The notes under the pieces: model-generated
Told to the model about the DNA's origin: nothing
The model's database searches: none
Seen by the model: only the letters and a program-made list of their open reading frames with translations
Shown: one piece after another, positions 17,101 to 64,000 of the stretch
How the letters are laid out: the number at the start of each line of letters is the position of its first letter
Numbering within the stretch: position 1 is the stretch's first letter
Made by a program: the position numbers and the translations under genes
Origin: Closterium sp. NIES-65
Taxonomy: Eukaryota; Streptophyta; Zygnematophyceae; Desmidiales; Closteriaceae
DNA: 64,000 nucleotides
Direction: 5' to 3'
Assembly (NCBI GenBank): GCA_948144175.1
Contig: CANXME010002524.1
Span: 62,001-126,000 of the forward strand

Positions 17101-17802
17101 TCTGCTCTACAGCAACTCAGTGGTGGAACAGCTACATTACTGCAGCACTGATTCCTAACAGCTGCTCCTTCTACATTACAACCAAGCAAATTTCATGCTT
17201 AAAGGGCTCTTCTTGACAGCTCTCCTGTAAGGAGCTCCTACATCGTCCGTCTAGCCACAACACCTGTTACCGGTTCTTCATACCACTAGCCCTCTGCCTA
17301 AGTGACTTTTGAGTCGACTCAAAAGTCACCTCCTACATCGTCCGTCTAGCCACAGCACCTGTGACCTGTTCTTCATACCACAGGTCCTCTGCCTAGCACA
17401 GCCGCTCACCTCACCTTGCGTGGCGGCGTCGGCGGAGGCCTGCGCGCGCACGGCAACGGCGGAGGGAGTCGCCGTGGCGGCAACTCGGCGGGGAGCGGAG
17501 ATGGCTGCCCCGCGGAAAGAGACGGAGGCGGACGAAGAGAGGGCCTGGAGAAGACGGAAGAGAGACAGATCCAGAATGAGTGAAGGAGAAATATAGATAT
17601 AACGAGAGGAAGAGGTGTTAAATGATTAAACGGGTGAGTGGTCGTGAGGGAAACAATCACATCGAGTGGGAAAAGAGCTGGCGTGTGTTGGTGTTCTGGG
17701 AAATGCCAATGAAGCCTCTACGAAGCTCACATTCTGAGATCTCGACGCAGCGAGCGAGAGGCTGCTCATCTGCGCTTGCGCAGGCGCTAGGAGCGACGCC
17801 AT
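14136..17802 (-). CDS. RPL15: Plastid ribosomal protein uL15c (RPL15), four exons
   Basis: Exons on the minus strand: 17802-17731 (24 codons), 17544-17415 (43 codons plus 1 nt), 15285-14921 (2 nt plus 121 codons) and 14333-14136 (66 codons with TAA). All introns are GT-AG and the phases 0, 1, 0 join cleanly, giving 254 residues. Exons 1-2 encode a Ser/Ala-rich plastid transit peptide. Exon 3 opens with the uL15 signature [15 protein letters not shown], then a Gly/Arg-rich segment [18 protein letters not shown] and the [11 protein letters not shown] block. Exon 4 holds the KLEAAGC...PGRKK end of bacterial-type L15. The protein is part of the 50S subunit of the chloroplast ribosome. Intron 2 is about 2.1 kb and carries repeats. 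Exons 1-2 and the promoter have an inverted duplicate at 48240-49110 that serves a PPR gene. Confidence 0.9.
15331..15351. repeat. G-run
   Basis: Mononucleotide G tract just upstream (on the gene strand) of RPL15 exon 3; on the minus strand it is part of the pyrimidine-rich 3' intron end. Confidence 0.8.
15860..16590. repeat. Three dispersed copies of a ~100-bp repeat in RPL15 intron 2
   Basis: Copies around 15870-15975, 16109-16215 and 16490-16590 share CAGTAAATCGTCAT followed by AACGTCAGGGCGTTGGGACT and TGACATC. They are spaced about 240 and 375 bp apart and diverged by several substitutions. Confidence 0.85.
17235..17396. repeat. Direct repeat flanking a 28-bp palindrome (RPL15 intron 2)
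   Basis: A 66-bp segment (17235-17300) recurs at 17330-17396 with few changes. Exactly between them, 17302-17329, is a perfect 28-bp palindrome whose core is CTTTTGAGTCGACTCAAAAG. Confidence 0.92.
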
Positions 17803-18198
17803 GGCTGGCCCAGAACACAGCTACCTTGAATCGCGGAGAAATAATACCCAAGCACCAAAAGAAAAGGAAAATAGCCTCCTTGAAAACCCTAGAGAGGAGG
17901 GGAGGGTGAGCACAGAGAAGCTAGGAACATGAAGCAGGAGAGGAGTGGGAGTCCCTGCTCGCGAATTCAAGAGTGTGAGGTCGCTGCTCAAACGATTTGT
18001 GAACGAAACGCCCGAATCGAAACTGTGGTCTCGCAATATTTCGCCAGCTGGTTCTCGAATTCTTGCGACCGAATTTCTACTGCCAGTTTGGGGCAGAAAC
18101 TGCCCTGTCACCACCTTCTGGGCTTTGGTGTGATGGGCGAAGACGTGGCGACCCAGGCCTTTCCGGATGACGCTGACGTGGCAGCCAAGTGAAAACAA
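17803..18198 (-). promoter_or_regulatory. RPL15 promoter and 5' leader with telo-box
   Basis: AAACCCTAG at 17884-17892 reads TAGGGTTT on the gene strand, about 85 bp before the ATG. This telo-box is typical of plant ribosomal-protein gene promoters. About 370 bp upstream is CCACGTCAGCGTCATCC. Both are conserved in the duplicated promoter at 48240-48629. Confidence 0.7.
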
Positions 18199-47470: not shown

Positions 47471-47860
47471 GTGATTTCGTTGGTCAGAATGTTGTGGCGC
47501 AGCAGTTTGTGGAGGGAATCAGCGGGGAATTTCTAAATGTAGACCCGATGACGGTGCTGAGACTGGATGGGCATCTGGAGCCGCCTAGGGATTGCCTGCA
47601 CGACTGCCTGTCTGGTCCGTCGGATGAATGGGTGAGACTATAGTATCATATTCTGAAGGACTTGGTCTTATCTGTCGCCTAGTGATGGGCCTTTGGAGCC
47701 GCCTAGGGGCTGCCTGCACTACTGGCTGCGTGGTCCACCGGATTAATGGTTTAGACTACTGTATCATATGCTGAAGGACCTGCTTTGACCTGGTCTGGTG
47801 CTGAATCAGCTTGTAGTAGCCGCCTAGGGGTTTCCTACAGGAGCTGCTGGGTGGAAAACA
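47471..47860 (+). pseudogene. C-terminus of the disrupted host gene, in tandem copies
   Basis: DFVGQNVVAQQF is followed by RDCLHDCLSGPSDEW (about 47586-47630). The D-x-x-H plus Gly-Pro...Trp pattern resembles the end of plant PC-esterase/TBL proteins. A second copy (47686-47787: RGCLHYWLRGPPD, then LLYHMLKDLL and TGA) and a third short one (47814-47850) follow at about 121-128 bp spacing. Copy 1 has TAG and copy 2 has TAA inside. Confidence 0.45.
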
Positions 47861-48239: not shown

Positions 48240-48629
48240 TCCCATCTCAGCTTGGCTTCCCTTACCACGTCAGCGTCATCCAGAAAAGCCTGGGCCGCCA
48301 CGTGATCAAACCCAGAACACCGATACCCAAAATGATGACGTGTCAGTTCTCGTCGCAGAACAGCCAATCTTCACCCATAGTTTTCTACTTTCGCGCGAAC
48401 TTTTGAGTGTTCGTTTAGGGTTCGCTTATGTTCGCCGCTTCGTCGAACTCAGGGACTTAACTTCCCTGGTCCTTCTGAGATTCACATCCCCAGCTTCTAG
48501 GTACTCTCCCTAACCTCCCCTCTCCCTAGGGTTTCCGAGTTCCTACTATCCTACTGTACTTCCTCCTTGGTCCTCAGTGTAGATTTCCCCGTGACTTGAG
48601 GTAGCTGGTGGCTGTGATCTCGGCCAGCC
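48240..48629 (+). promoter_or_regulatory. PPR gene promoter, duplicate of the RPL15 promoter
   Basis: CCACGTCAGCGTCATCC near 48258, GGGCCGCCACGT near 48291, CAGCTTCTAGG near 48491 and the telo-box CCTAGGGTTT at 48525-48534 occur in the same order and similar spacing as on the minus strand at 18190-17880. The ATG follows about 100 bp after the telo-box. Confidence 0.8.
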
Positions 48630-48701
48630 ATGGCGTCGCTTCTAGCGCCTCCGAAAGCGCAGATGAGCAGCATTTCTCTCGCTGCGTCGACGTCTCAGAA
48701 T
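48630..48701 (+). CDS. PPR gene exon 1 (transit peptide)
   Basis: 24 codons starting MASLLAPPKAQM, ending CAGAAT before GTGAGC. RPL15 exon 1 has the same length and differs at only a few residues. Confidence 0.85.
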
Positions 48702-51700
48702 GTGAGCTTCTAGATGCTTCCGTAGCTTCTGTCACGATACGCCATCACATCCTTGTTCATTTCCCAACCCGTTAGCCTTCTGAATTTCCTTTATGAATTT
48801 GATGTTTTTGGTTCTCGTATACATATTCACCCATTTACTAGCTTCTCAACTGCTTCCTCTCTCTGCATCCCTTTCCCTCGGCCTGTCATTAGTTATCGCT
48901 CTCACCGCTTCCTCTCACTGCCTTCCGTCTCCTCCAGGCCCTCTCGTCGACCGCCTCCGTCTCTTTCCGCGGGGCAGCCATCTCCGCTCCGCGCCGAATC
49001 TCCGCCGCGGGGACGGTCTCCTCCGCCGTTGCGGTGCCCGCGCAGGCTTCCGCCGCTTCCGCCGCCGACGCCGCCGACGGCGCCGCTCAAGGTGAGGTGA
49101 GCGGCTGTGCTAGCATCTGGTCACTTGATTTTTCTTGCATTGTTGACCGTTGAATGAAAGCCGCTCAAGATGAGGCGAGCGGCTGTGCTGGCATCTGATT
49201 CGTTGAATTCTTGCACTCCCCCCTCTTCCGGCCATTCCCTTCTCCTTCCCCCTGCACCCCTCCCCCACCCCCTTCCCGCCCTCCCCCAACACTTTCTCTG
49301 CGCAATCCTCACAGGGGACGCCAGGGGAGGTGCAGGAGGGGGTGCAGCGGGCACTGGCGGCAGTGAAGAACTCGCCAGCAGGCACGCCGCTGTCGTTGCT
49401 GCAGCGGCAGCTGGCATCCGTACTCACGCCGTTCGCGGATAGACTGGATTCTCGAGCCTTGAGCAGCATCATGAAGCAAGTGAGTGAGTGAGAGTGTGTC
49501 TGTGGTCACTTGCTAGGTTGGGCTGGGATTCTCTTAGGGATTCGCCAACAGGCACGCCGCTGTCGTCGCCGCAGTGGCAGCTGGAGTCCGTACTCACGCC
49601 GTTCGCGGATAGGCTCGACTCGCGCGCTCTCAGCAGCATCATGAAGCAGGTGCGTGAGTGAGTGAGTGAGTGAGGGAGTGAGTGAGTGAGTGACTGAGTG
49701 AGAGTGATGTGAGGGTGAGTTGTGTCAGGCTGGATTCGGACTGGATCACATACTTAAAGGGTAGTTCCCGTCGGTGCTCACGCCGTTCGCGGATAGGCTG
49801 GATTCGCGCGCTCTGAGCAGCATCATGAAGCAAGTGAGTGAGTGAGAGAGTGAGCGACTTTTGAATCGACTCAAAATTCAGCTCGTTACAATGTCACTCA
49901 GAGAAGCAGCACCACGAAGCAGTCTGGAGTCTCAGTAGGATAGGACAACTAGCGCCGACCGAGAAACAGGTGAGCGAAGGAAGTGGAGAAATAGAACCGA
50001 CCAACCAACGAATAGCTTCAAGTTTAGCCGCGTCAGAGAGAAAGGTATGTGGTCAAACGGAACGGCCCACTGCATGCTGCTGCCCGACCACCTCTCCCTG
50101 TCAACCGATCCCTCCTTTTGAGGCGCCTCAAAAGCCGCCTCAAAAGTCGCCTGAAAAGGCGCCTCAAAACTTTTGCGGCGCCTCGCAAGTCGGAATGGCC
50201 TGCGTGCATACTGCCCGACCACCTCCCCCCCTGTCAACCGATCCCTCCTTTTGAGTCGCCTCAAAAGCCGCTCAAAAGTCGGAACGACCCACTGCATGCT
50301 GCTGCCCTACCTCCCCCTGTCAACCGATCCCTCCCTGCATGCATGGTCGGGTGGTGAAGCAAAGCAGCCGTTTCTCTCCTCCCCCCTGCTCTGACCCCCC
50401 GTCGTCTTCCCTTTCCCAAAACTGCCCAATCTGCCAGCATGAGGCGGACTGGCGTGTCGTGGTGGCGCTCTACGATTGGATGGCGGGGCAGGGCATTTCG
50501 CGCAGCGCAGCATCCATTCCATTCCATTCCATTCGATTCCTGCATGAGTTTGTGATAGGAAGGATGATTGGATGGCATTCCTTCTGGTGATGATTGTGGT
50601 AGCAAGCACACGGATCTGGTTTTTGTAAATAAATGTGCTTTTCTCCTTGTCTCCCCATCCCTTTCCCCCCTCCCGTTTCTCCCCTCCCCTTCCTCTCCCT
50701 CCGCTCCCCCATCTACCCCCATCTGTCAGCAAGAGGCGGACTGGCGTGTCGTGCTGGCGCTCTACGATTGGATGGCAGGGCAGGGCATTCCGCGCAGCAT
50801 CCACGTGTACACGGTGGTGCTCTCGTGCCTGGGGCGGACGGCGCAGTGGAAGCACCTGCAATCCGTCTTGGACGATATGGCGAGACTAGGTGAGGGAGGG
50901 AGAGAACTGTATAGGCTGCGAGCAGCAGTGCATGGGATAGCCTGCACTGGCATGGGAAGGCTGTGCTCTCGTGCCTGGGGCGGGCGGCACAGTGGAACCA
51001 CCCGCAATCCGTTTTAGATGACAATTCACGACTGGGTACGTAGGGAGAGAGAGACAGGGCGGTTGGGGGAGAGAGGTCGGTGAGAGGCTGACATAGAGGT
51101 AGACTGGGACTCGGAGCAGAGAGGGATAAATCTGCATAGCATCCACGTGTGCACCGATGGTGGTACTCTCGTGCCTGGGGCGCGCGGCACAGTGGAACCA
51201 CCTGCATCCACAGTGCCTGTCAAGACTAGGTGAGTCCACTCCACTCTCACTTCCCCTCCATTCCGCATCCACGTGTACACGGTGGTGCTGGCGTGCCTGC
51301 CTGGGGCGGGGCGGGGCGGGCGGGTTGCGCAGTGGAGCCATCTTCAATCCGTGCTGGATGATATGGCAAGACTAGGTAGGAAGGGTATTTGGGCTCGGGG
51401 CGTTCCGCGCAGCATCCACGTGTACATCCACGGAGCGAGGAGATGCACTCTCTCACTCACTCACTTCCATTCCGTTCCGCATCCATGCATGCATGTGTGT
51501 GTGCACGGGCTGGCGGTGGTGCTCTGCGCATGCGTGCATGCCTGCGATGTTAGGCGCAGTGAAAGCACCTGCACTCCGCTCCGCGCTGGCTTACAATGCG
51601 CGCTTGCTCTTGTGCCGCCGCGCGTACAACACGCTCATAGTCGCCTACTCCAATGCTGAATGCTCACCTCTATCCCACCATGGCACGCCCCGCTCTCCCT

Positions 51701-54382
51701 GCTTCTCTGTCTTCCGCTCTTTCAAATAATTATCACAGGAGTGCCCATGGACGAGTACGTGTACAACACGCTCATAGTCGCCTACTCCAATGCTGAATGC
51801 TCACCTCTCTCCCACCATGGCACGCCCCGCTCTCCCTGCTTCTCTGTCTTCTGCTCTTTCAAATAATTATCACAGGAGTGCCCATGGACGAGTACGTGTA
51901 CAACACGCTCATAGTCGCCTACTCCAATGCTGAATGCTCACCTCTCTCCCACCATGGCACGCCCCGCTCTCCCTGCTTCTCTGTCTTCCGCTCTTTCAAA
52001 TAATTATCACAGGAGTGCCCATGGACGAGTACGTGTACAACACGCTCATAGTCGCCTACTCCAATGCCGGTCGCTTCAACGAAGCTCTAGGGTGGTTTGA
52101 GCGCATGGAGAAGGCGGGTTGCATGCCCAACCAGGTGAGGACGAGAGACGAGAGGTGACTGTCACAAGAAGCTCTAGGGTGGTTTGAGCGCATGGAGAAG
52201 GCGGGTTGCATGCCCAACCAGGTGAGAACATCAGAAGAGATCAGGATCTTCTGTATCTTCTTGTCTTGACCCTCATCCCCTCTCCCCTCCCCTGTGGTTC
52301 GAGCGCATGCCAAATCAGGCGAGGACGAGTGATGAGATGTGGAAGCAGTTTCAGAGAAGGTGTTTGTTTGTACCGTTTCCTGTCTTTACCATCGTCCCCT
52401 CTCTCCCATGGTTCGTTTCAATTTGAGCCGCATGGAGGATGCCGCTGCAAGCTGAATCAGGTGAGGACAAGAAAAGAAATTAATTCTACAAGGTCCCTTT
52501 TATCGTCCCGTCGTTACCATAGGATGATAGGACTCTTCATCTCTGTACAGAGAAACGTAGATCCGTCCATCTCTGTGTTTAAATGGTTAACGTCTACGTT
52601 TAAGCACATGGAGAAGGGGGTACGTGCCAGGCGACAGGAGAGACGATTTGGACCCACCAGGTGACAGGAGAGACGATTTTGATACGAGAAAAATGGCTTC
52701 TGTGTTCTCCTGTGCTACCGTCGTTCCGTCTTCGTGTGCCCCTCCTATCCTCATTGTCATCTCCCTCCCGTCCCTTTCCCGTGCACGCCCCCTTGCGCCC
52801 ACGCATGCCCCCTTGCGCCCATGCATGCCCCCTTGCGCCCATGCATGCCCCCTTGCGCCCATGCATGCCCCCTTGCGCCCATGCACGCCCCCTTGCGCCC
52901 ATGCACGCCCCCTTGCGCCCATGCACGCCCCCTTGCGCCCATGCACGCCCCCTTGCGCCCATGCACGCCCCCTTGCGCCCATGCATGCCCCCTTGCGCCC
53001 ATGCACGCCCCCTTGCGCCCATGCACGCCCCCTTGCGCCCATGCACGCCCCCTTGCGCCCATGCACGCCCCCTTGCGCCCATGCACGCCCCCTTGCGCCC
53101 ATGCACGTCCCCTTGCGCCCATGCACGCCCCCTTGCGCCCATGCATGCCCCCTTGCGCCCATGCACGCCCCCTTGCGCCCATGCACGCCCCCTTGTGCCC
53201 ATGCACGCCCCCTTGCGCCCATGCATGCCCCCTTGCGCCCATGCACGCCCCCTTGCGCCCATGCACGCCCCCTTGCGCCCATGCACGCCCCCTTGCGCCT
53301 ATGCATGCCCCCTTTCCCCGCGATGAAGCTCTTTGCTTGGGCGGGAGGGTCGGGTCGCGTGGCGCGCATTGCTGAGACTAACAGCCCTCCCGCTCCCCCC
53401 CGCTCCCCCCCGCTCCCCCCCGCCCCCCCCCGCTCCCCCCCGCTCCCCCCCGCCCCCCCCCGCTCCCCCCCGCTCCCCCCCGCTCCCCCCCGCTCCCCCC
53501 CGCTCCCCCCGCTCCCCCCCGCTTCCCCCCGCTTCCCCCGGCGCTTTACACGGGAGGTGCTTCCCATCGCTTTCCCTCCCCCTCCTTCCTTCCCCTCACC
53601 CCCTCTCTCCTCTCCATCCGTCCAGCAGGTAATCTACACGTCAGTGAAGAACTGTTTGCACGGGCGTGCAGGAGGGATGGTGTGGCATTTTGAGTCTGCT
53701 TTTGAGTCGACTCAAAAGCTGTCTCATTACACGCAGTTTTGAGTCGACTTAAAAGCAGACTCATAACACGCGGTTTTGAGTCGACTTAAAAGCAGACCCA
53801 TTACACGCGGTTTTGAGTCGACTCAAAAGCAGGTAATCTACACGTCAGTGATGAACTGTTTGCACGGGCATGCAGGAGGGATGGTGTGGCATGCATTGCT
53901 GAGGCGAACAGTCCCCCTTGTGCTCTCCCTTTCTCTTCCTTCCCTCTCTTCCCCCATTCATTCGTCGCACCAGGTGATCTACACAACGGTGGTGAAGCTC
54001 TTTGCCCGGGCGGGCAGGACGGATGGCCTGGCATGCATTGCTCTCAGATTAACAAGCTTTGTTCTCCTCCCTCCCTCTTGTTCCCTCACCCCATTCATTC
54101 GTCACACCAGGTGATCTACACTACAGTGATGAAGCTCTTTGCACGGGCGGGCAGGACGGACGGCGTGGCACGGATCGCCGCCCTGCTCAGGGAGGAGGGC
54201 GGCAGGGAGGACGGCCTTTTTCGGCTGGATTCGAAAACGATATGCGCGTTGATCGCTGCGTACAACAGCATGGGGGACCTGAATTCTGCGCAGGAGGTAT
54301 GGTTTCTGAGAGGATTTCTGAGGCTTCTCCTCGTATATATGTATAATGTGCTGATATATTTCATGTATTTACATATACACAT

Positions 54383-54417
<35 letters not shown>

Positions 54418-57400
54418 TACATATACATATGTACGTATGGATGTATATATGCAACACTGTTCCGCATGACCAGGCATTGCCTTAGGGGAGTGGCACCGTG
54501 GGACGTAGTGGCGTGGAGTGGACTGCCTTGGTGGCGCATATGGGCTGCAGCAACCGCTCTCCACCCCAAAGAACCCATCCTCCCTCTTCTTTCCTGCTGC
54601 ACCCCCCTCCCTGTCTCCATAGGAGATTGAATCCGCACGAGAAGGTATGCCCCCAGGCGAGTGGGACATGGTAGTCTGGAACGCCATGGTGGCCGCGTAT
54701 GGGCTCTCCAGCAGCACCAACCGCTCTCCACCACACAGAACCCACTCATTGCTTCCCTCTGTGTTCCGTCATTCACAGGTGTTTGAGGCGGCACGGGCAG
54801 GCACGCCCCCAGGCGAGTGGGATGTGGTGGTGTGGAACGCCATGGTGGCTACGTATGGGCGGGCGGGCAAGGTGAGGCAGGCAGAGGAGCTATTGCTGCA
54901 GATGGAGGCACAGGCGGACAGGGGTGACGGGCGGAGTGAGGGGGAAGAAAAGGCACGTGGGGTTGATACAGGGGAGTGGGGGAGTGTAGAGCCTGATTGG
55001 GGGAGTGCGGAGGCAGATGGGGGGGGGAGCGTTGAAGCGGATCGGGTGGGCCAGAGCATGGGAGAAACAGGGGGAGCGGAGTCAGTGGGTAGGGTGCAAA
55101 GGGGTGCTGCTGGGTCGATTATTTCGTCGACTAGAAACGTCAGCAGGGTGCAAGGGGACGTTGAGGCGTCTCAAGCGACTTGTGAGTCGACTCAAGAGCA
55201 TCTGGGCAGGGCTGCGACAGAGGCAGAGGATTCGGCTTCAGAGGCGCCTCAAAAGGCGTCTGAGAAGTACATGGACTGGGTGGCAGAGAGAGAGGATTTG
55301 CTGGTGGTGCAGATGGGTGCAGAGGGGTTTGAAGGAGAGGCGCTGCAAGGGCGAGCGCCTGGCGGTGGTGCTGACAGTGCTGACAGGGCTGGTGTTGCTG
55401 TAGGAGCTAAGTCAGCAGCAGCTGGTGTTGCTGCATCAGCAGCTGTGGCAGCAGAAAGGCCTGTAGCAGCAGAGACATCTGTAGCAGACACCTTTGAAGG
55501 CTCTTTCTGGTCCAACCCTGGGCTGCAGGGAACCCAGCCTCACCCATCTCCGCTCCTTCAACCTGCCCTTTCCTGCTCCGAACCAGCTTCGATGGGCTCC
55601 GAGCCTCGGCCAGAGGTTCAGAGCAAGGCTCGGGGTGAGCTTTGGAGCGAGGCTCGGGAGGGGCTAGTGGCTGCAACTGTGACTGTATCCCCAGTTTCAA
55701 GGCTGGAAAGGCAAGGTATCAGCGAGAGTGACAGTGAGAGCCAATATTCCGGTGGTGAAAATGGCAGTGCTGGTGTGGGTAACTGGGATAGTGGCAGTGG
55801 TAGTGTGGTAGCCGCTGGTGGTGGCGTTGGTGTTGGTGGCGATGGGGGTTTCGTGGCTGCAGGTGTAGATAGTGGTGGAACGGGAAATTCTGGGGGTATA
55901 CCGTTGGTTTCCCCTCCTCCCCCTCCCCCTCCCCCTCCGCCTCCTCTTGTTGCAACGGTTTTGAGAAAGCCTACGCCGCTACCTTCCACTGCTAGCAGCA
56001 GCAGCAGCAGCAGCAGCAGCCCCAGCAGCAGCAGGAACGATGGCCGTAGCAGTAGCAGTAGCACAGGCGATGGCCGTATAAGCAGCAGCAGGAGCAGCAG
56101 CAATGACAGCGGCAGCAGCAGCACCAATCAGAGAAGTAGGGGCAGCTTAGGTGAACCCTCAGGTGGATTCTCAGGTGATTTAGAAGCAGAAGGAGCAGGA
56201 GGAAGCGGGGAGGATGGCAGGGAGGAGGAAGAGGAAGGGAAGGAGATTGATAGGGAGGTGGAAAGGAGGGAGATGCTACGGCGGGAGGGAGGGGGAAGGA
56301 GGGGAGGAAAGTCGACCAGGGGATATTCCGGCAGCACTGGTGCGAGGAGAGGAAGGGAAAGGGTTGGAAGAGGCGAAGGCGGAGGAACCAGAGGCGGATT
56401 GGAAGGAGGGAATCGGGAGCTGTCGCCCCCAAGGTTTGGGCCAACGTTGAATGCGTACAACTCTCTGCTCAATGCCTATGCCAAGGCGGGAGATGTTGAC
56501 AAGGCAGAGAAGACGTTTAAGGTAGGCTTGAGACGAGGTCTTGAAGTGGATGGGGAGGCACTGAATGCGTACAACTCACTCCTGAACGCGTATGCGAAGG
56601 CGGGGGACGTGGACAAGGCAGAGAAGACCTTTAAGGTAGGCTCAAAACTTGGTTTACAGCAGGGCAGTCATGAGCTGTCTCCCCTCGGTTTGGGCCGACA
56701 CTGAATGCATACAACTCGCTGCTGAACGCGTATGCCAAGGCGGGAGACGTGGACAAGGCAGAGAAGACGTTCAAGGTAGGCTTGAAAGACGAGGCAGAGA
56801 GAAAAGTCTTGTTTTGAGGCACCTCAAAGCAAGACGAGGCAGAGAGAAAAGGGGAACGTTTAGTTGAAGAGATGACTTTTGAGTCGACTCAAAAGTCAAG
56901 ACGTGGACAAGGCAGAGAAGACTTTCAAGGTAGGCTTGAAAGATGAGGCAGGGAGAAAAGGGGGATGTTTTAGTTGAATGCTCACAACTAGCCGCACTCC
57001 GTCTGTGTCTGCTTTTGAGGCGCCTCAGAAAAGGGGAATGTTTAGTCGAATGCTCACAACTCGCCGCACTCAGTCTGTGTCTGCGCCCTCCCCTCAACCC
57101 CCCTCTTCTCTCCCCTTCCCCACCCCACCCCTTCCCTCCGCAAACCTCAACAGCGCCTCATGGCTCGCGGATTCTACCCGTCAACTGTCACATTCAACAC
57201 GCTGTTCTCGCTCTACGCCTGGCTGCCCTCCTCCTCAATCTCTGTCCTATCCCTTCCCAACTGACCCGTTCCCCCATTCCCTCCTTCCCTCGCCCCCCTC
57301 CCAGCGTCTCATGGCTCGCGGATTCTACCACTCAACCGTCACATTCAACACGCTGTTCTCGCTCTACGCCTCGCTGCCCTCCTCCTCCTCCTCGCTCTCT

Positions 57401-60400
57401 GCTGCCCGCCGCCTGCACGCCCTCATGCTGCAAATGGGCGTCCCCCTGGACGTGCCTCTCCACGTGTACTTGTGCTGTTCTTTGAGTGGCCTGCTCAGCC
57501 GGTTTTCACCGCTAACACCCCCTTGTCTTGCTCTTCTTCCCCCACCCTCTTTGTGTCTGCTTCTCCCACCCACCCGCCCTCCCCAGCGCCTCATGGCACG
57601 GGGGTTCTACCCGTCAACAGTCACATTCAACACGCTATTCTCTCTCTACGCCTCGCTGCCCTCCTCCTCCTCCTCGCTCGCTGCTGCCCGCCGCCTGCAC
57701 GCCCTCATGCTCCAAATGGACGTGCCTCTGGACGTCTACTCGTGCTGCTCTCTCATTGGCCTGCTCAGCCGCTCCGGGCAGGTTGAAGAAGCGGTCGGGC
57801 TGTTTGAAAGAATGAAGGCGCAGGGCGTGCAGGTGTGTGTGTGGGTGGGGGTGTGTGCATGGGTGGGGGCGTTCAGGTGCATGCTTGTGCGAGGGTGGGT
57901 ATGGGTAGTTGTTGGTGGGTGTGGGTAGGTGTTGGTGGGTGTGGGTAGGTGTGGGTGGGTGGGGTTGAAGAAGCGGTCGGGCTGTTTGAAAGAATGAAGG
58001 CTCAGGGCGTTCAGGTGTGTGGGTGGGTGGGGGCATGGCGTGCAGGTGCATGCTTGTGCGAGGGTGGGTGTGGTGTGGGTAGGTGTGGGTGGGTGGGTGG
58101 GGTTGAAGAAGCGGATGGGCTGTTTGAAAGGATTAAGGCACAGGGCGTGCAGGTGTGTGTTTGTGCGAGGGAGAGTGGGTATGTGTGGTTGTTGTGGGTG
58201 TGTGTTTGCCTGCATTTGCGTGCACATTCGTGTGTTTGAAAGAATGAAGGCGCAGGGAGTTCAGGTGTGTGGTGTGGGTGTGTGTGCATGGGTGGGGGCG
58301 TTCAGGTGCATGCTTGTGCGAGGGCGGGTGGGTGGGCGTGGCGTGGGTTTGGGTGTAAGTGGTTTGGGTGTAAGTGGGTTTGGGTGTAAGTGGGTTTGGG
58401 TGTAAGTGGGTTTGGGTGTAAGTGGGTTTGGGTGTAAGTGGTTTTGGGTGTAAGTAGGTTTGGTTGGGTGTAAGTGGGTTTGGGTGTAAGTGGGTGGCGA
58501 TTTTTTGTTCAAAATTCCCTTTTAAAAAGTGATTTTCTAGGCACCTCAGACATTGTTTGTGTCCCTTCCTTCCCTGTTCGCTCCCTCCCTCCCTCCACAA
58601 TCTGAAGTTCCAGACCTCTCTCAGCTGACTTTTGAGTCGACTCAAAAGTCACAATCTGAAGTTCCAGACCTCTCTCAGCAAAAAATCCATACCTTTCACC
58701 ACCCCCCTCCCCCCTCGCTCTTTCGATGCACTTCCTCCTCCCCCTCCCCCCCACCAGCCGGACTCGCACGTGTTCAGTGCAATGATCGCCATGTTGGCCC
58801 GCCGCCACGGCAAGGTGGACTTTCAAACGCACAACCAACCAAAGTCTCACCCTGATCAATCCCTTACCCCAATTACCTCCACCCTTCCTGCCCCCCACCC
58901 CCACCAGCCGGACTCGCACATGTTCAGTGCCATGATCGCCATGTTGGCCCGCCGCCACAGCAAGCTGGAAACATGTAGCTCAATCTTTTGTCTTCTTTCT
59001 CCCACCCACCCTTCAACCCCACCACCATCACCCCCCCCACCCCCACCAGCCGGACTCGCACGTCTTCTGTGCAATGATCACCATGTTTGCTCGCCACGGC
59101 AAGCTGGAGTACCAAGGTGCAACCAACCAGAGCCTACCTGTTCAATCCCTTTCCCCCACCAACCCTCCCCCCCCACCAGCCGGGCTCGCACGTGTTCAGT
59201 GCAATGATCGCCATGTTCGCGCGGCACGGCAAGCTGGAAGCCGCGCTGAGAACCTTCCTGGAGATGAAAGCCATACCCTAATCCCTCCCTTCCCCCATCC
59301 ACCTCCATCCACCCGCACCAGCCCGACTCTCATGTCTTCAGCGCAATGATCGCCATGTTCGCGCGGCACGGCAAGCTGGAGGCCGCGCTGAGAACCTTCC
59401 AGGAAATGAAGGCGGCAGGGTGTGCAGTGGACATGCCCGTGCTGACGTCCATGATCGGCGTTTACCACCGCTTGGGTCTGCTGGAAGAGGCTTCTACAGC
59501 TGCAATGGACGCTATTGTGAGTGGAAGTTTGAGGTGCCTTCACGATGCATGTCCCAGAGCTCACTGCATGTATGTACCACCACCGCCGCCTTCCCTGCCC
59601 TGGTGTTACATGCCCATGGCATGGACGCAATTGGGAGTGGAGTGGAGGTTTGAGGTTTGAGGTGCCTTGATTACGCATGTGCTTGTGCATGCCCATAATG
59701 CATGTGCATGTGTCGGCGCTGACTGTGTGACGTCTTATGATGGGCATGTACCACCACCAGCTTCGCTGCCCTCCCTTCCCCTCCCACCCCAGACTCAGGG
59801 CAGCGGGCATCTGGACTGGATCCTGTGATTGCCAGCACCATCATCTCCCTCTTCTCATTCGCCAGTCTCCCTTTCATTCCCAACTTCCCAATTGTCCTCT
59901 CTATGTGCCTCCCTCTTTCTTTCTAACCTTCTCCCCCCCTCAGACTCAGGGCAGCGGGTACCTAGACCCTTCTCTCACTTCTCCGCTACCCAACCACACA
60001 CCCTCCTGCCCAACACACCTTTTTCTTCTCCCCTTTCCTGTTCAGACTCAGGGCAGCGGGCATCTAGACCCTGTGATTGCCAGCGCCATCATCTCCCTCT
60101 TCTCCAAACAAGGCCGGCTCGGGGACGCGGTGAGAATATTTCGGGCTGCCCGGGGCATGGGCAGCCAGCAGATCCAGCCGGGCAGCATCGGCGAAAATAG
60201 TGTGAGCACCTGGAGTAGGAACAACAGCGTCTGGAGTAGAAGCAGCAGCGGCGGTAGTAGCAGTGGCAGTAGCAGTGACAGCGAGAGCAGCAGCAGTGGT
60301 ACTGGCGAGAAATCAAATCGATCAGTAGCAGATGTAGAGTCAGAAGAAGCAGCAGGAGCAGAAACCGGAGCAGCAGCAGCAGCAGCAGCAGTGGCAGAAG

Positions 60401-63400
60401 TAGCAGGAGCAGCACGGGCAGCAGCGGCGGCAGCAGCAGGAGAAGGGACAGTAGCAGCACCATCAGCAGCAGCAGGATCAGCATCAGCAGCACGAGCAGC
60501 AGAGGGAGCAGAGGCAGCAGCAGCAACAGAGGCAGCAGCAGGAGCAGCTGCAGGAGCAGCAGCGGCAGTAGGGGTAGCAGCAGGAGCAGCTGCAGGAGCA
60601 GCAGTGGCAGCAGGGGCAGCAGCGGTAGCGGCAGCGGCAGGAGGGGGCAGTTCTCGCAAGAGGGGTCACAGGGGGAGGGGGAGGGGGAGGAGGCGGGGGG
60701 GGCGGGTGGATGCAGTGCTGCTGAGCACGATGATGGACGCTTACAGCAAGGCAGGCCAGCTGGACGCTGCTGAAGCTCTGTTCGCTGAGATCCTGGTGAG
60801 TGGTGGGGTGTGGTTGGGTACGGTGTGGCTGGGTACGGTGTAGCCTCTTGCTTGCTTCTGAGTAGATGTGGTGCTGCTGAGCACGATGATGGACGCCTAC
60901 AGCAAGGCGGGCCAGCTGGACGCTGCTGAAGCTCTGTTTGCTGAGATCCTGGTGGGCGAATGGTTAATGTGTAGCAGCCCAGTTGAGTGCATGGGTAGGT
61001 TGTGTGTACATGCAGTGGATGCGGTGCTGCTGGGCACGATGATGGACGCTTACGGCCAGGGGGGGTAGGTATGCTGTTTGCTGAGATCCTGGTGAGTGGA
61101 TGAGAGTGGGTGGGTTTGGGTGGGTGGATATGGCGTGGATGGGTGGTGATGGGTGAGTAGGGGGTTAGCATCTAGTGTTGCTGCTGCTGGCTGTGCTGTT
61201 AAGAACGATGATAAATGCGTGCAAGGCAAGGCAGACCAACTGGATGCCGCTGAAGCTCTTTTTGCTGAGATCCTGGTGGGTATGGATGGGTATTGATTGG
61301 TGAGTGAGCTGGTAGGAGGAAAAGTGCCGTTTTTTTTTTTTTTTTTTTTTTTTTTTGGCGCCTCCCCTCCCTCCCCCGTTTCCCCTCTTCAGGCGGATGA
61401 GTCAGGCAGGCAGTATAGCGGGCCTGGCAGCACACACCACCATGATCAGCGTGTATGGGAAGCACACTGGGTCACATTGTATAATCAAATTTTCCACCGC
61501 CCTCCTCCTCCTCCTCCTCCTCCTCCTCCTCCTCCTCCTCCTCCTCCTCCTCCTCCTCCTCCTCCTCCTCCTCCTCCTCCTCCTCCTCCTCCTCCTCCTC
61601 CTCCTCCTCCTCCTCCTCCTCCTCCTCCTCCTCCTCCTCCTCCTCTTCCTCCCCCCTTCTCAGCTTTCCCTGGTACTCCCTTCTCAGCTTTTCCTGGGAT
61701 CCCCTGGGACCTCCTCCTCCTCCTCCTCCTCACCACCATAACTCAGCTTTCCCCCCTTCTCCCACCCACCACTTGTTCCCCCCCACCACGCATGCACGCC
61801 CCTTCAGGCGGATGAGTCCGGTAGCATAGCGGACCTGGCAGCTCACACCACGATGATCAGCGTGTATGGGAAGCATGGGCTGGTGGATAAGGCGAAGGTG
61901 CGTGAGGGAGGGTGATGTGGGAGACGAGGGGATTATGTGTTTGTGAAAAGGGGGATATCACACTCCACCATGATTAACGTGTATGGGAAGCATGGGCTCG
62001 TGGATAAAGCGGTGAGGGGGAAGGGAAGGCGGGAAAGGAAGCGAATAGGGGGATGTGTGTGAAACGAAGTGAAATGTGAAATGTGAGAAGAAGGGAGATG
62101 TGTGTGTTCGCATCGCAGTGCATGTGAAGGGAGGACTAGCATCAGAGCTCACACCACGATGATCAGCGTGTATGGGAAGCGTGGACTGGTGGAGAAGGCG
62201 AAGGTACGCAAGGAAGAAGAGAGATACGAGGGGGATGCGTGTGAAGCAGGGAGATCTGTCGAAAGGGGGAAAAGGGGGTAGAAGGGGAAGAAAGAAAAGA
62301 GGGATGAACGAACGGCCATATTCTCCTGTTCTTCCCACGGAGGTAGCACTACTGAGCCTGAATAGTGGACTAGAGCAGGGGCAGGAAAAAAACTCAACCA
62401 AATAAAAAATGCGCCCAGGTTAGCTAAGGGTTTCCTTTTTTTTTTTTTTTTTTTTTTTTGTTCTGGCCTGCCCTGAACGGATCAGTAGTGATTCGGCCGC
62501 ACACACATGACCCTGTGCTGTCGCCCTCCATCCTCCCTTTCCCTGGTGCATCCCTGCAGCTGCTTTTCACAAGCCTGAGAGGGTCGGGCAGGGACTTGGA
62601 TGCAGTGATATGGAACGCCATGCTGAGTGCGCTGGGGAAGAACGGAAAGGTGGAGAGGAGAGTAGGCAGCCACGAACACAATATTTCATCCTTCCATTCT
62701 CTCTCCTCATTCCCCCCACCCACTCACTGTTGGATCCCTTCAGCTGCTGTTCACGAGCCTGAGGGGTTCGGGCAGGGACTTGGACGCAGTGATATGGAAC
62801 GCGATGCTGAGTGCGTTGGGGAAGAATGGGCTGTGGAGAAAAGAACCATGGAACGCACATAACCGCGATGCTCACTCCTTCCATTCCCCGCCTCTGCTTC
62901 CACTTCTGTGCAGCTGCTGTTCACCAGCCTGAGAGGGGCGGGCAGGGATTTGGATGCGGTGATATGGAACGCCATGCTGAGTGCGCTGGGGAAGAACGGG
63001 CAAGTGCAGGAAAGCCAGCTACATCTGTCTTTCTGTTCCCCGCCTCCTCTTCCCCTTGTGTGCAGCTGCTGTTCACAAGCCTGAGAGGGTCGGGCAGGGA
63101 CTTGGACGCAGTGATATGGAACGCGATGCTGAGTGCCCTGGGGAAGAACGGGTGGACGAGGGGTGAATAACAAGTCCTCTAGGCCGCACACATATATTGT
63201 TCGACAAACGTGTCCCATCCTCTCTCCATTCCCCCGACACGCCTCCCTTTTTTTCTCATTACAGGTGCTGTTTACCAGCTTAAGAGGGTCGGGCAGGGAC
63301 TTGGACGCAGTGATATGGAATGCCATGCTGAGTGCCCTGGGGAAGAACGGGCGGGTGGGTGGGGAAGAGACAGATGCATCAACTCATGCACTCTCCCTAC

Positions 63401-64000
63401 GTTCCTCACGTCCTCCTCCCTTTCGGTGCAGCTGCTGTTTACAAGCCTGAGAGGGTCGGGCAGGGACTTGGATGCAGTGATATGGAATGCCATGCTGAGC
63501 GCCCTGGGGAAGAACAAGCGGGTGGAGGAGGCGAAGGAGCTGTTTGCTGACATGCAGGAGAATGGGCCGGCACCCACTGTTTATTCCTACTCCATTATGA
63601 TTGACGCGTGAGTTGATGCGAGAGTGGGTGTTGTTGGGAAAGAATGAGAGTGCAAGGGAGTGAGGGGGTTGGAGGAGGTAGGGCTGCTGTTTGCTGACAT
63701 GCAGGAGAATGGGCCGGCACCGACCGTTTACTCCTACTCCATTATGATTGACACGTGAGTTGATGCGAGAGTTGGTGTGGACGGCTGTGGAGCAGTTAGG
63801 AAGTTTGTAGAGAGAGTGTGCAAGGCAGGAGAGTCGGCTGGCGCCGACTGTTTATTCCTACTCCATTATGATTGATGCGTGAGTTGATGCGAGCGTGGGT
63901 GTGGAGGGGGGGAGAATGAGAGTGTGAGGGGGTGAGTGATGGTGGGGGAGGAGGCGAAGGAGTTGTTTGCTGACATGCAGGAAAGCGGACCGGCGCCCAC
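48630..64000 (+). CDS. Plastid-targeted P-type PPR protein gene (12 exons, incomplete)
   Basis: Exons: 48630-48701, 48938-49091, 49325-49479, 50730-50889, 52013-52134, 54111-54296, 54779-56521, 57587-57832, 59322-59516, 60046-60795, 61808-61897, 63432-63607. All introns between them are GT-AG, every phase matches, and the joined frame is open for 1,349 codons before it leaves the window. Exons 1-2 are a plastid transit peptide shared with RPL15. From exon 4 on, about a dozen 35-residue PPR motifs follow one another across exon borders, such as YNTLIVAYSNAGRFNEAL and NAMLSALGKNKRVEEAKELF. No DYW or E motifs are seen so far, as in P-class proteins, which bind organelle RNA. Two long disordered inserts interrupt the motif array. 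Introns are filled with partial copies of neighbouring exons. The gene model comes from phase and motif continuity, not transcripts. Confidence 0.82.
48938..49091 (+). CDS. PPR gene exon 2 (transit peptide)
   Basis: 51 codons plus 1 nt, opening [23 protein letters not shown]15 exon 2 opens [20 protein letters not shown]. The donor GTGAGGTGAGCGGCTGTGCT is identical in both genes. A partial copy of the exon end with damaged donor lies at 49161-49215. Confidence 0.85.
49325..49479 (+). CDS. PPR gene exon 3
   Basis: 2 nt plus 51 codons. It follows the acceptor GCCAG; the AG ten bases earlier would give the wrong frame. It encodes a helical segment ending RALSSIMKQ. Two donor-side copies follow at about 49540-49649 and 49763-49833. 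Confidence 0.75.
49540..49833 (+). repeat. Donor-side partial copies of exon 3
   Basis: Both copies keep CACGCCGTTCGCGGATAGGC and the ATGAAGCA(A/G) end followed by a GT donor-like sequence. GAGT repeats fill the spacer. Confidence 0.9.
49857..50334. repeat. Palindromes alternating with a threefold direct repeat
   Basis: A unit of about 50 bp (GCATGCTGCTGCCCGACCAC ... ACCGATCCCTCC) occurs at 50066-50114, 50198-50248 and 50288-50334. Palindromes CTTTTGAGGCGCCTCAAAAG (50115-50134) and CTTTTGAGTCGCCTCAAAAG (50248-50267), plus degraded ones, lie between the copies. Another near-palindrome is at 49857-49878. Confidence 0.88.
50438..50507 (+). repeat. Acceptor-side partial copy of exon 4
   Basis: Starts after CAG, as exon 4 does, and matches its first 70 bases or so before diverging into a CATTC repeat. 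Confidence 0.88.
50730..50889 (+). CDS. PPR gene exon 4
   Basis: 53 codons plus 1 nt: QEADWRVVLALYDWM and the first clear PPR helix pair (VYTVVLSCLGRTAQWKHLQ). Acceptor CTGTCAG, donor GTGAGG. Confidence 0.85.
50945..51580 (+). repeat. Donor-side partial copies of exon 4
   Basis: Copies end at about 51035, 51229 (CAAGACTAG then GTGAGT) and 51375 (CAAGACTAG then GTAGGA). Fragments lie at about 51400-51430 and 51548-51580. Each contains CTCGTGCCTGGGGCG or a derivative. Confidence 0.88.
51600..52012 (+). repeat. 137-bp tandem copies of the acceptor side of exon 5
   Basis: Nearly identical units with exon starts at 51739, 51876 and finally the true exon at 52013. Each has TTATCACAG, the first 53 or so exon bases and about 80 bp of intron. 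A decayed copy is near 51610. Confidence 0.95.
52013..52134 (+). CDS. PPR gene exon 5
   Basis: 2 nt plus 40 codons: VPMDEYVYNTLIVAYSNAG, a full PPR motif, ending at the CCCAACCAG donor edge. Confidence 0.87.
52168..52640 (+). repeat. Donor-side partial copies of exon 5
   Basis: Exon-end copies at 52168-52221 (exact over more than 50 bp), about 52293-52318 and about 52405-52459, and a fragment near 52600. The first three end in (A/C)A(A/G)CAG or ATCAG followed by a GT-type or GC donor. Confidence 0.88.
52781..53313. repeat. 20-bp minisatellite, about 26 units
   Basis: Unit ATGCACGCCCCCTTGCGCCC with C/T variants. Because 20 is not a multiple of 3 and the unit lacks stops in every frame, it creates long spurious frames on both strands. 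Confidence 0.97.
53391..53540. repeat. 10-bp minisatellite
   Basis: CGCTCCCCCC repeated about 15 times. Confidence 0.95.
53698..53830. repeat. Array of four palindromes
   Basis: Palindromes at 53698-53719 (perfect, 22 bp), 53737-53758, 53772-53793 and 53809-53830, spaced about 36-39 bp and separated by CAGAC-(T/C)CATTACACGC-type linkers. Confidence 0.93.
54111..54296 (+). CDS. PPR gene exon 6
   Basis: 62 codons: VIYTTVMKLFARAGR, then KTICALIAAYNSMGDLNSAQE. In phase with exons 5 and 7. Confidence 0.87.
54366..54432. repeat. CA/TA microsatellite
   Basis: ACATACACAT-type repeat in intron 6. Confidence 0.9.
54623..54700 (+). repeat. Acceptor-side partial copy of exon 7
   Basis: It matches the start of exon 7 (GCCCCCAGGCGAGTGGGA and GGAACGCCATGGTGGC) and follows CCATAG. 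Confidence 0.85.
54779..56521 (+). CDS. PPR gene exon 7 with a long disordered insert
   Basis: 581 codons. The start, VFEAARAGTPPGEWDVVVWNAM, and the end, LNAYNSLLNAYAKAGDVDK, are PPR motifs. Between them about 500 residues are acidic/Ser/Gly-rich, with a Pro run near 55910-55945 and Ser runs near 55990-56130. Palindrome relatives lie in frame at 55161-55174, 55178-55199 and 55236-55255 and encode ESTQE and EAPQK. Confidence 0.83.
56787..56851. repeat. 20-bp exact direct repeat flanking a 25-bp palindrome
   Basis: AGACGAGGCAGAGAGAAAAG at 56787-56806 and again at 56832-56851. The 25 bases between are a near-perfect palindrome centred on TTGAGGCACCTCAAA. Confidence 0.93.
56873..56898. repeat. 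26-bp perfect palindrome
   Basis: Core CTTTTGAGTCGACTCAAAAG, with TGA/TCA ends. It is followed at once by the third donor-side copy of exon 7. Confidence 0.95.
56956..57085. repeat. 55-bp direct repeat flanking a palindrome
   Basis: Left copy 56956-57012, right copy 57029-57084, sharing GAATGCTCACAACT and GTCTGTGTCTGC. Between them is TTTTGAGGCGCCTCAG. Confidence 0.9.
57154..57500 (+). repeat. Acceptor-side partial copies of exon 8
   Basis: Exon-start copies at 57154 (about 80 bp) and 57305 (about 195 of the 246 exon bases) before the true exon at 57587. Confidence 0.92.
57587..57832 (+). CDS. PPR gene exon 8
   Basis: 82 codons: RLMARGFYPSTVTFNTLFSLY, a Ser run, then a second PPR motif ending VGLFERMKAQGVQ. 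Confidence 0.87.
57833..58330 (+). repeat. Donor-side partial copies of exon 8 within GT-rich DNA
   Basis: Exon-end copies at about 57964-58014, 58101-58151 and 58231-58264, each followed by GTGTGTG(G/T). The spacers are GTGGGTGGG-rich. Confidence 0.92.
58335..58496. repeat. 16-bp minisatellite GGGTGTAAGTGGGTTT
   Basis: About 9 units. Each contains GTAAGT, the consensus 5' splice site. Confidence 0.93.
58597..58679. repeat. 29-bp exact direct repeat flanking a 25-bp palindrome
   Basis: 58597-58625 and 58651-58679 are identical. The 25 bases between, plus the first base of the right copy, form a perfect 26-bp palindrome (58626-58651). Confidence 0.97.
58758..59275 (+). repeat. Acceptor-side partial copies of exon 9
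   Basis: Four copies start at 58758, 58908, 59050 and 59180, each after CACCAG and each opening CCGG(A/G)CTCGCAC; the true exon starts at 59322. Spacing is 130-150 bp. Confidence 0.95.
59322..59516 (+). CDS. PPR gene exon 9
   Basis: 65 codons: PDSHVFSAMIAMFARHGKLE and VLTSMIGVYHRLGLLEEAS. Confidence 0.87.
59610..59695 (+). repeat. Donor-side partial copy of exon 9
   Basis: ATGGACGCAATT followed by GGGAGTGG and GTTTGAGGTGCC, matching the edge of exon 9 and intron 9. Confidence 0.75.
59793..59975 (+). repeat. Acceptor-side partial copies of exon 10
   Basis: Copies at 59793-59857 and 59944-59972, both opening ACTCAGGGCAGCGGG after CAG or CCAG. Confidence 0.93.
60046..60795 (+). CDS. PPR gene exon 10 with an Ala/Ser-rich insert
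   Basis: 250 codons: HLDPVIASAIISLFSKQGRL, about 170 residues of Ser then Ala-rich low complexity (GCAGCA repeats), then VLLSTMMDAYSKAGQLDAAE. Confidence 0.83.
60866..61276 (+). repeat. Donor-side partial copies of exon 10
   Basis: Copies end at 60952, about 61092 and about 61276, each with GCTGAGATCCTG followed by GTG(A/G)G. Confidence 0.94.
61331..61356. repeat. T-run
   Basis: About 26 T, 36 bases before the acceptor-side copy of exon 11. Confidence 0.9.
61393..61474 (+). repeat. Acceptor-side partial copy of exon 11
   Basis: GCGGATGAGTC after CTTCAG, matching to GTGTATGGGAAGCA. Confidence 0.9.
61500..61646. repeat. (CCT)n microsatellite, about 48 units
   Basis: Pure triplet repeat in intron 10; it opens all frames on both strands. 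Confidence 0.97.
61808..61897 (+). CDS. PPR gene exon 11
   Basis: 30 codons: ADESGSIADLAAHTTMISVY, then GKHGLVDKAK. Confidence 0.85.
61950..62203 (+). repeat. Donor-side partial copies of exon 11
   Basis: Copies at about 61962-62011 and 62148-62203, ending GATAAAGCG then GTGAGG and AAGGCGAAG then GTACGC. Confidence 0.92.
62435..62459. repeat. T-run
   Basis: About 25 T in intron 11, ahead of the exon 12 copies. Confidence 0.9.
62560..63355 (+). repeat. Five acceptor-side partial copies of exon 12
   Basis: Exon-start copies at 62560, 62744, 62914, 63066 and 63265 (true exon 63432), spaced 152-199 bp. Each has about 90 bp of exon (CTGCTGTTCACAAGCCTGAG to GGGGAAGAA) behind its own pyrimidine tract and AG. 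Confidence 0.97.
63432..63607 (+). CDS. PPR gene exon 12
   Basis: 58 codons plus 2 nt: DAVIWNAMLSALGKNKRVEE, then PTVYSYSIMIDA; donor GTGAGTTGATG. Confidence 0.85.
63679..64000 (+). repeat. Donor-side partial copies of exon 12
   Basis: Copies end at 63755 and 63879, both with ATTATGATTGA followed shortly by GTGAGTTGATG. A third starts near 63950 and is cut by the window edge. Confidence 0.95.

Follow-up and report, generated by a model that had tools for sequence, protein, structure and literature searches.

Plant patch-mediated repair yields small tandem duplications, and one-sided invasion, known from plant gene targeting, combines homologous repair at one end of a break with end joining at the other, which predicts a duplicated flank beside the copied tract. 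Exon-derived copies also lie beside their parent in introns after tandem exon duplication, where they are complete, have both splice sites and serve as mutually exclusive exons. Introns gained through tandem duplication of an AGGT site likewise carry neighbouring exon sequence, with the start of the next exon at the intron start and the end of the preceding exon at the intron end. Finally, small tandem duplications formed in break repair by Pol alpha-primase/CST fill-in and end joining are short head-to-tail copies beside their parent, which start out identical throughout (available text of PMC8355091).

Here we describe a gene of Closterium sp. NIES-65 whose introns carry partial copies of its own exons, which we call echoes. 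Like the break-repair duplications, echoes are short head-to-tail copies beside their parent, but they carry synonymous differences, and the identity of neighbouring spacers falls below 85% in 21 of 24 pairs. The duplicated flank predicted by one-sided invasion fits the echoes; that process is familiar from induced breaks and transgenes, whereas the echoes are a natural pattern extending along a whole gene, and we know of no such gene-wide case of one-sided invasion. In contrast to mutually exclusive exons, none of the 49 echoes is complete (the largest covers 76% of its exon), and the order of exon parts is the reverse of that in AGGT-type introns. No description of exon-edge echoes was found in the literature searched, which was mostly without subscription papers, and the available text of the Closterium genome paper (PMC10407611) makes no mention of them. 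The parts of the process are of known kinds; the gene-wide pattern and the coding-type divergence look new.

A PPR gene and the partial copies of its exon edges

The window, the whole stretch of 64,000 nucleotides that was analysed, contains at 48.6-64 kb a PPR gene of 12 GT-AG exons (48630-63607), which join into a single open frame of 1354 codons (table 1). The piece encoded by exons 9 and 10 matched the PPR profiles of Pfam (PF01535, E 4e-15; PF13041, E 2e-12), and comparison of residues 1-333 with solved structures placed designed PPR proteins at the top, with PPR10 and PAP2/pTAC2 also matched. Judged by eye, the N-terminus looks like a transit peptide. Homologous predictions exist for the Closterium strains NIES-64, NIES-65, Naga37s-1 and Yama58-4. 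The NIES-65 prediction P0007 showed no differences from window 54623-55411 over 263 residues, NIES-64 differed from the window gene at one of 635 compared residues, and the NIES-64 prediction P0002 indicates that the gene extends past the window end.

Unguided local alignment of each exon and its flanks against the neighbouring introns, followed by refinement within regions set by hand from its result, gave 49 echoes at 11 of the 12 exons, 24 upstream (acceptor edge) and 25 downstream (donor edge); for exon 1 the unguided search found none. The first-pass annotation had counted about 45 copies at 11 of 12 exons, and its examples (five upstream and three downstream of exon 12, four upstream of exon 9, three downstream of exon 10) were all recovered. 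The counts of codon positions, indels and spacers rest on the same hand-set regions. The exon parts of echoes were 78-100% identical to their exon, with a mean of 89%. The earlier description of the introns as largely made of echoes was overstated, as alignments to an exon edge account for 33% of intron DNA (3,601 of 10,914 nt). The introns also contain arrays of minisatellites and simple repeats, with units of 20 bp, 10 bp and 16 bp and of CCT, at 52780-53320, 53385-53540, 58340-58500 and 61490-61650.

Table 1. Exons (E) of the PPR gene with their upstream (U) and downstream (D) echoes, and the uL15 echo, in window positions.
Feature	Position	Strand	Remarks
Exon 1	48630-48701	+	start codon, transit-peptide-like; open frame, GT donor
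Exon 2	48938-49096	+	open frame
E2 downstream	D1 49160-49197	+	GC replaces GT
Exon 3	49315-49479	+	open frame
E3 downstream	D1 49542-49675, D2 49771-49852	+	refined alignment
E4 upstream	U1 50425-50506	+	refined alignment
Exon 4	50730-50889	+	open frame
E4 downstream	D1 50963-51050, D2 51131-51234, D3 51265-51385, D4 51398-51426	+	D4 without junction
E5 upstream	U1 51621-51656, U2 51725-51793, U3 51862-51930	+	true tandem repeats, 137-bp period; U1 without junction
Exon 5	52013-52134	+	open frame
E5 downstream	D1 52168-52240, D2 52305-52341, D3 52422-52477	+	
E6 upstream	U1 53322-53372, U2 53615-53687, U3 53830-53899, U4 53955-54041	+	U1 without junction
Exon 6	54111-54296	+	open frame
E7 upstream	U1 54513-54545, U2 54618-54704	+	U1 weak, without junction
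Exon 7	54779-56521	+	PPR at both ends, long low-complexity middle; open frame
E7 downstream	D1 56562-56642, D2 56672-56794, D3 56899-56948	+	
E8 upstream	U1 57145-57236, U2 57281-57501	+	
Exon 8	57587-57832	+	open frame; PPR by Pfam
E8 downstream	D1 57963-58030, D2 58101-58163, D3 58233-58280	+	
E9 upstream	U1 58748-58819, U2 58895-58969, U3 59037-59109, U4 59166-59271	+	
Exon 9	59322-59516	+	open frame; PPR by Pfam
E9 downstream	D1 59621-59656	+	short; GG replaces GT
E10 upstream	U1 59790-59856, U2 59940-59970	+	
Exon 10	60046-60795	+	open frame
E10 downstream	D1 60862-60954, D2 61015-61099, D3 61190-61281	+	
E11 upstream	U1 61384-61464	+	frame-shifted; same frame-shifted peptide in NIES-64 P0002
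Exon 11	61808-61897	+	open frame; E11/E12 junction agrees with P0001
E11 downstream	D1 61961-62011, D2 62146-62216	+	alignment of D1 ends short of junction
E12 upstream	U1 62555-62655, U2 62741-62826, U3 62904-63011, U4 63060-63161, U5 63262-63367	+	
Exon 12	63432-63607	+	open frame; gene continues beyond window (P0002)
E12 downstream	D1 63667-63778, D2 63825-63902, D3 63944-64000	+	D3 cut by window end
uL15 echo, donor side	14785-14879	-	plastid ribosomal protein uL15 gene; copy of its exon at 14940-15034

Upstream echoes carried the exon start in 21 of 24 cases, with the AG kept in all 21, and downstream echoes carried the exon end in 22 of 25, with the GT kept in 19; the splice dinucleotide was intact in 40 of the 43 junction-bearing echoes. 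Six echoes, some of them short, had no visible junction (E5 U1, E6 U1, E7 U1, E4 D4, E11 D1 and E12 D3). No upstream echo touched the end of its exon and no downstream echo its start. These counts bore out the proposed rule that upstream copies hold the AG and the first part of the exon and downstream copies the last part and the GT, and complete exons indeed occur once, between the two stacks.

As a check of polarity independent of the hand-set regions, we used the first and last 100 nt of each exon as probes. All 57 matches lay in introns adjoining the probe's own exon, and none was obtained from the gene's other introns, from introns in reverse or from positions 1-45000 of the window. Twelve of the 57 seemed at first to break the polarity; these were mid-exon parts of known echoes, none touching the edge that the rule forbids. 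Exon 11 is the exception in this test, as its 90 nt are shorter than the probe and the whole exon counts as both ends. Copies adjoin their parent on the same strand (the plus strand was searched). Chance similarity was rejected, since the probes matched adjoining introns only and the controls gave zero, and the locality of the copies likewise rejected capture of exon pieces from anywhere.

Duplication across an acceptor places a start-half upstream and duplication across a donor places an end-half downstream, so the polarity follows once selection has eliminated additional complete exons and duplications within an exon. Because any duplication spanning one splice junction obeys the rule, it is no evidence for border targeting. 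The first-pass annotation was right about copying across splice borders, but the automatic polarity of the copies gives no separate sign of targeting.

Coding-type differences, spacers and other strains

Comparison of echoes with their working exon revealed 58, 40 and 215 differences at codon positions 1, 2 and 3 (887 sites each), with a pN/pS of 0.153 (by-exon bootstrap 0.11-0.22). Between echoes on the same side, the corresponding counts were 75, 40 and 186 of 757 each, with a pN/pS of 0.207 (0.11-0.36). The synonymous divergence of the echoes was pS 0.33. When the same alignments were read in the two wrong frames, the excess shifted along with the frame. We then simulated neutral copies budding from their own exon (160 runs at four ages, with the real-exon omega of 0.07 and a kappa of 2). 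Simulated echo-versus-exon pN/pS had means of 0.50-0.57 and a minimum of 0.39 (0.49 for the two ages whose pS came closest to that observed), echo-versus-echo pN/pS was 0.71-0.75 with a minimum of 0.48, and the third-position share was 0.42-0.44 with a maximum of 0.51, compared with 0.69 observed. As none of the 160 runs reached the observed pN/pS or third-position share, neutral decay of own-exon duplicates was rejected for the set as a whole. This suggests that the differences arose mostly in coding lineages.

Terminal changes at positions 1, 2 and 3 numbered 24, 16 and 39 (of 495, 533 and 352 sites) in echoes other than the outermost, and 4, 1 and 25 (of 240, 251 and 188 sites) in the working exon. 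The third-position excess on terminal echo branches could reflect constraint on the echoes themselves. A mutation bias towards third positions was rejected, as per-base rates at positions 1 and 2 predict 13.7 changes where 39 were observed. Gene conversion or unequal crossing-over within one lineage, as a source of the low pN/pS, was rejected on theoretical grounds only: since no more than one copy can be the working exon at any moment, half or more of the time separating two copies would be unconstrained.

A single stop codon in the exon frame was present across all 49 echoes. Their exon parts (3,241 nt) contained 18 frame-breaking and three in-frame indels, a few of which lie close to ragged ends; 33 of the 49 echoes had no exonic indel. 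With 18 of 21 indels frame-breaking, the reading frame is not protected overall. Exon extension by read-through was rejected, since an open, in-frame extension was possible for only four of 43 echoes. By eye, several upstream echoes have no usable donor. By their nonsynonymous sites, indels and splice dinucleotides, the echoes seem to have been non-coding for a short time, whereas their synonymous sites (pS 0.33) point to deep divergence.

The three spacer pairs of at least 85% identity lie upstream of exon 5 (99%, in 137-bp units), downstream of exon 8 (93%) and downstream of exon 12 (88%). When each of the 24 pairs was scored against 30 shuffles, 12 exceeded all 30 and 12 were no better than the best shuffle; by eye, several of the former differ about as much as synonymous sites do. 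In the self-alignment, 17 of 63 pairs were offset by 114-200 bp. If an exon's own edge had recently been duplicated in tandem, neighbouring spacers should be alike and synonymous differences rare.

Predictions P0002, P0003, P0004, P0005 and P0007 (451-1274 residues) include echo or spacer sequence as protein, as seen by eye and partly by alignment, while P0001 (89 residues) contains neither. P0002 of NIES-64 holds the frame-shifted exon 11 echo, with 20 residues identical to window 61393-61452, P0007 of NIES-65 reads E7 U2 and its spacer as coding, and P0005 of Naga37s-1 aligns across E8 U1 and U2 (56% over residues 602-687). By eye, P0004 of Yama58-4 has three further copies of the exon 9 end, compared with one short copy in the window, and the number of copies downstream of exon 9 varies among strains. 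Strain residues were compared only at single sites judged well aligned and in the NIES-64 comparison; P0001 outside exons 11 and 12, P0004 in exon 5, and P0003 and P0005 in exon 12 were set aside as non-matching PPR-repeat alignments. At exon 4, where the local exon has threonine and lysine, the downstream echoes carry the alanine of Naga37s-1 in three of three cases and its asparagine in two of three; these residues could equally be the ancestral state. Other sites keep the local residue, for example in E9 U4 and, at codon start 118, in E12 D1 and D3. In Naga37s-1, the PPR gene is predicted on two contigs, which differ at four of 211 residues in exons 3-6.

The uL15 gene, palindromes and other repeats in the window

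A donor-side echo is also present in the gene for plastid ribosomal protein uL15 (table 1). It differs from its exon at 8, 6 and 7 of 27, 27 and 26 sites at codon positions 1, 2 and 3, with no codon bias on these small numbers. Behind it, 14653-14716 is a weaker repeat of 14755-14814 that aligns to the exon over 10 nt only, and is perhaps a second uL15 echo. The DNA before and over the first two exons is common to the PPR gene (48265-49113) and uL15 (17393-18181, minus strand), at 70% over 508 nt and 77% over 86 nt; this likeness suggests that one of the two genes acquired its promoter and targeting signal from its counterpart. An exon-like fragment at 47482-47839 shows a match, too weak for the Pfam cut-off (E 3e-4), to the end of a PC-esterase/TBL protein, and a copy of its donor-side end was found downstream. 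By eye, several Copia-like retrotransposon frames surround host genes in 1-46000.

A palindrome with the core TTTTGAG-NCGN-CTCAAAA forms 12 clusters (up to two mismatches), nine of them in the PPR gene; sites include 14728, 17302, 50248, 53696-53832, 57013 and 58626. Direct flanking copies of 28-66 bp, within 12 nt on both sides, accompany six of the 12 clusters (four of nine in the PPR gene), compared with 10% of 600 random intron positions of that gene. The palindrome looks like an insertion with a long, variable target duplication. Palindromes sit between the echoes E6 U2 and U3 and between E7 D2 and D3, and one cluster lies within exon 7 (55179-55255), in a stretch that by eye is absent from the Yama58-4 protein. 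One exact 20-base form of the palindrome had no match in bacterial/archaeal or viral collections, and a stretch of exon 12 had none in a plasmid collection.

Origin of the echoes

The reading we favour, tentatively, is that echoes arise when recombination between diverged copies of this gene goes wrong. A break would occur in an exon, and the broken end would invade the corresponding exon in a diverged copy, which could be a homeolog, a paralog or a hybrid partner; exons would be the invasion sites because only they are similar enough. Synthesis would continue past the exon edge into the intron of the donor copy, and the new end would be joined without homology to the other broken end, leaving a break point inside the exon. 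The outcome would be one complete exon with a donor-derived edge, while the former half-exon would be displaced together with its splice site; the direction of repair would decide whether the echo lies upstream or downstream. Half-exons without a partner splice site could persist, probably unused in mRNA; a complete extra exon would instead be included by splicing and so be lost. A diverged copy might, with the same reserve, resolve the conflict between the signs of a short non-coding history and the deep synonymous divergence, as the differences would be present at birth and of coding type, and the donor's intron would supply the spacers.

In the Closterium complex, genes vary in copy number, one strain is derived from a hybrid, and sequences that differ in origin have recombined (available text of PMC10407611). 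The Naga37s-1 residues in the exon 4 echoes and the two contigs with predictions in that strain are in line with a donor. In the NIES-64/NIES-65 group, the same text reports that duplicated genes form a clade in 216 of 246 families, read as recent duplication with gene conversion as the alternative; an old donor within the genome is less likely on this account. The small difference between the two Naga37s-1 predictions hints at less divergence than a pS of at least 0.33 needs. Also against a donor, other echo sites keep the local residue, the uL15 echo lacks the coding pattern, and the echo arrays do not, by eye, fall into two clean alternating alleles.

Plain short tandem duplication over exon borders, such as could arise when staggered breaks are filled in during repair, is possible but rather doubtful. 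Selection would filter the products, so that only outcomes with a single complete exon survive and half-exons decay. Geometry and polarity would then be automatic, and such repair is already described (available text of PMC8355091). The neutral pattern of the uL15 echo, the spacer pairs that beat their shuffles, the self-alignment offsets and the alike spacers at exons 5, 8 and 12 agree with it, and the repeats upstream of exon 5 indicate that ordinary tandem duplication happens too. Against it stand the simulations, which never reached the observed values, and the low identity of most spacers despite the high identity of the exon parts; duplication followed by decay, in its simple form, is rejected for the echo set as a whole. 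The first-pass annotation had taken repeated short tandem duplication as the simplest explanation, which holds for some units and for copying across splice borders but leaves the coding-type differences unexplained.

It is unlikely, though worth weighing, that many echoes are old duplicates under coding constraint, sometimes translated as alternative exon edges. Nearly the same substitution pattern would be expected as for a diverged donor, and the spacer pairs above their shuffles, some near synonymous-level divergence, would fit old duplication with constrained echoes as well. Coding-type differences on terminal echo branches, the single stop codon, the AG intact throughout and the echoes free of exonic indels are in line with constraint, as are the four echoes that extend their exon in an open frame and the coding use of echoes in the NIES-65 and NIES-64 predictions. 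This explanation fails mainly on indels, most of which break the frame; in addition, open in-frame extensions are rare, no usable donor is seen by eye in several upstream echoes, and gene predictions are not transcripts.

Retention of the echoes as decoy splice sites that tune gene expression is very improbable: most junction-bearing echoes keep their splice dinucleotides, but decoys need splice signals and not amino-acid conservation, copy number at exon 9 varies among strains (by eye) and uL15 has an echo too. There is hardly any chance of an assembly artefact in which similar gene copies were collapsed or chained; the genome group has many gene copies (available text of PMC10407611), but translated echoes in the NIES-64, NIES-65, Naga37s-1 and Yama58-4 predictions, including the same frame-shifted exon 11 echo in NIES-64, make a single faulty assembly unlikely, and echoes terminate inside exons beside other sequence.

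Extended further, faulty recombination between diverged copies could make the introns a fossil library of exon edges that are older or foreign, in which every echo would be a half-exon displaced when another gene version supplied the working edge. Introns would then grow by failed exchange between diverged copies, and the array at each exon would document earlier hybridisation or exchange between paralogs, a possibility that we regard as somewhat doubtful. If the echoes do stem from diverged copies, exchange between gene copies could be read from introns, and this would be a new route of intron growth in the algal class that is sister to land plants. Regardless of their origin, echo arrays mislead gene prediction, and the passing over of so many partial splice sites poses a direct question for splice-site choice.
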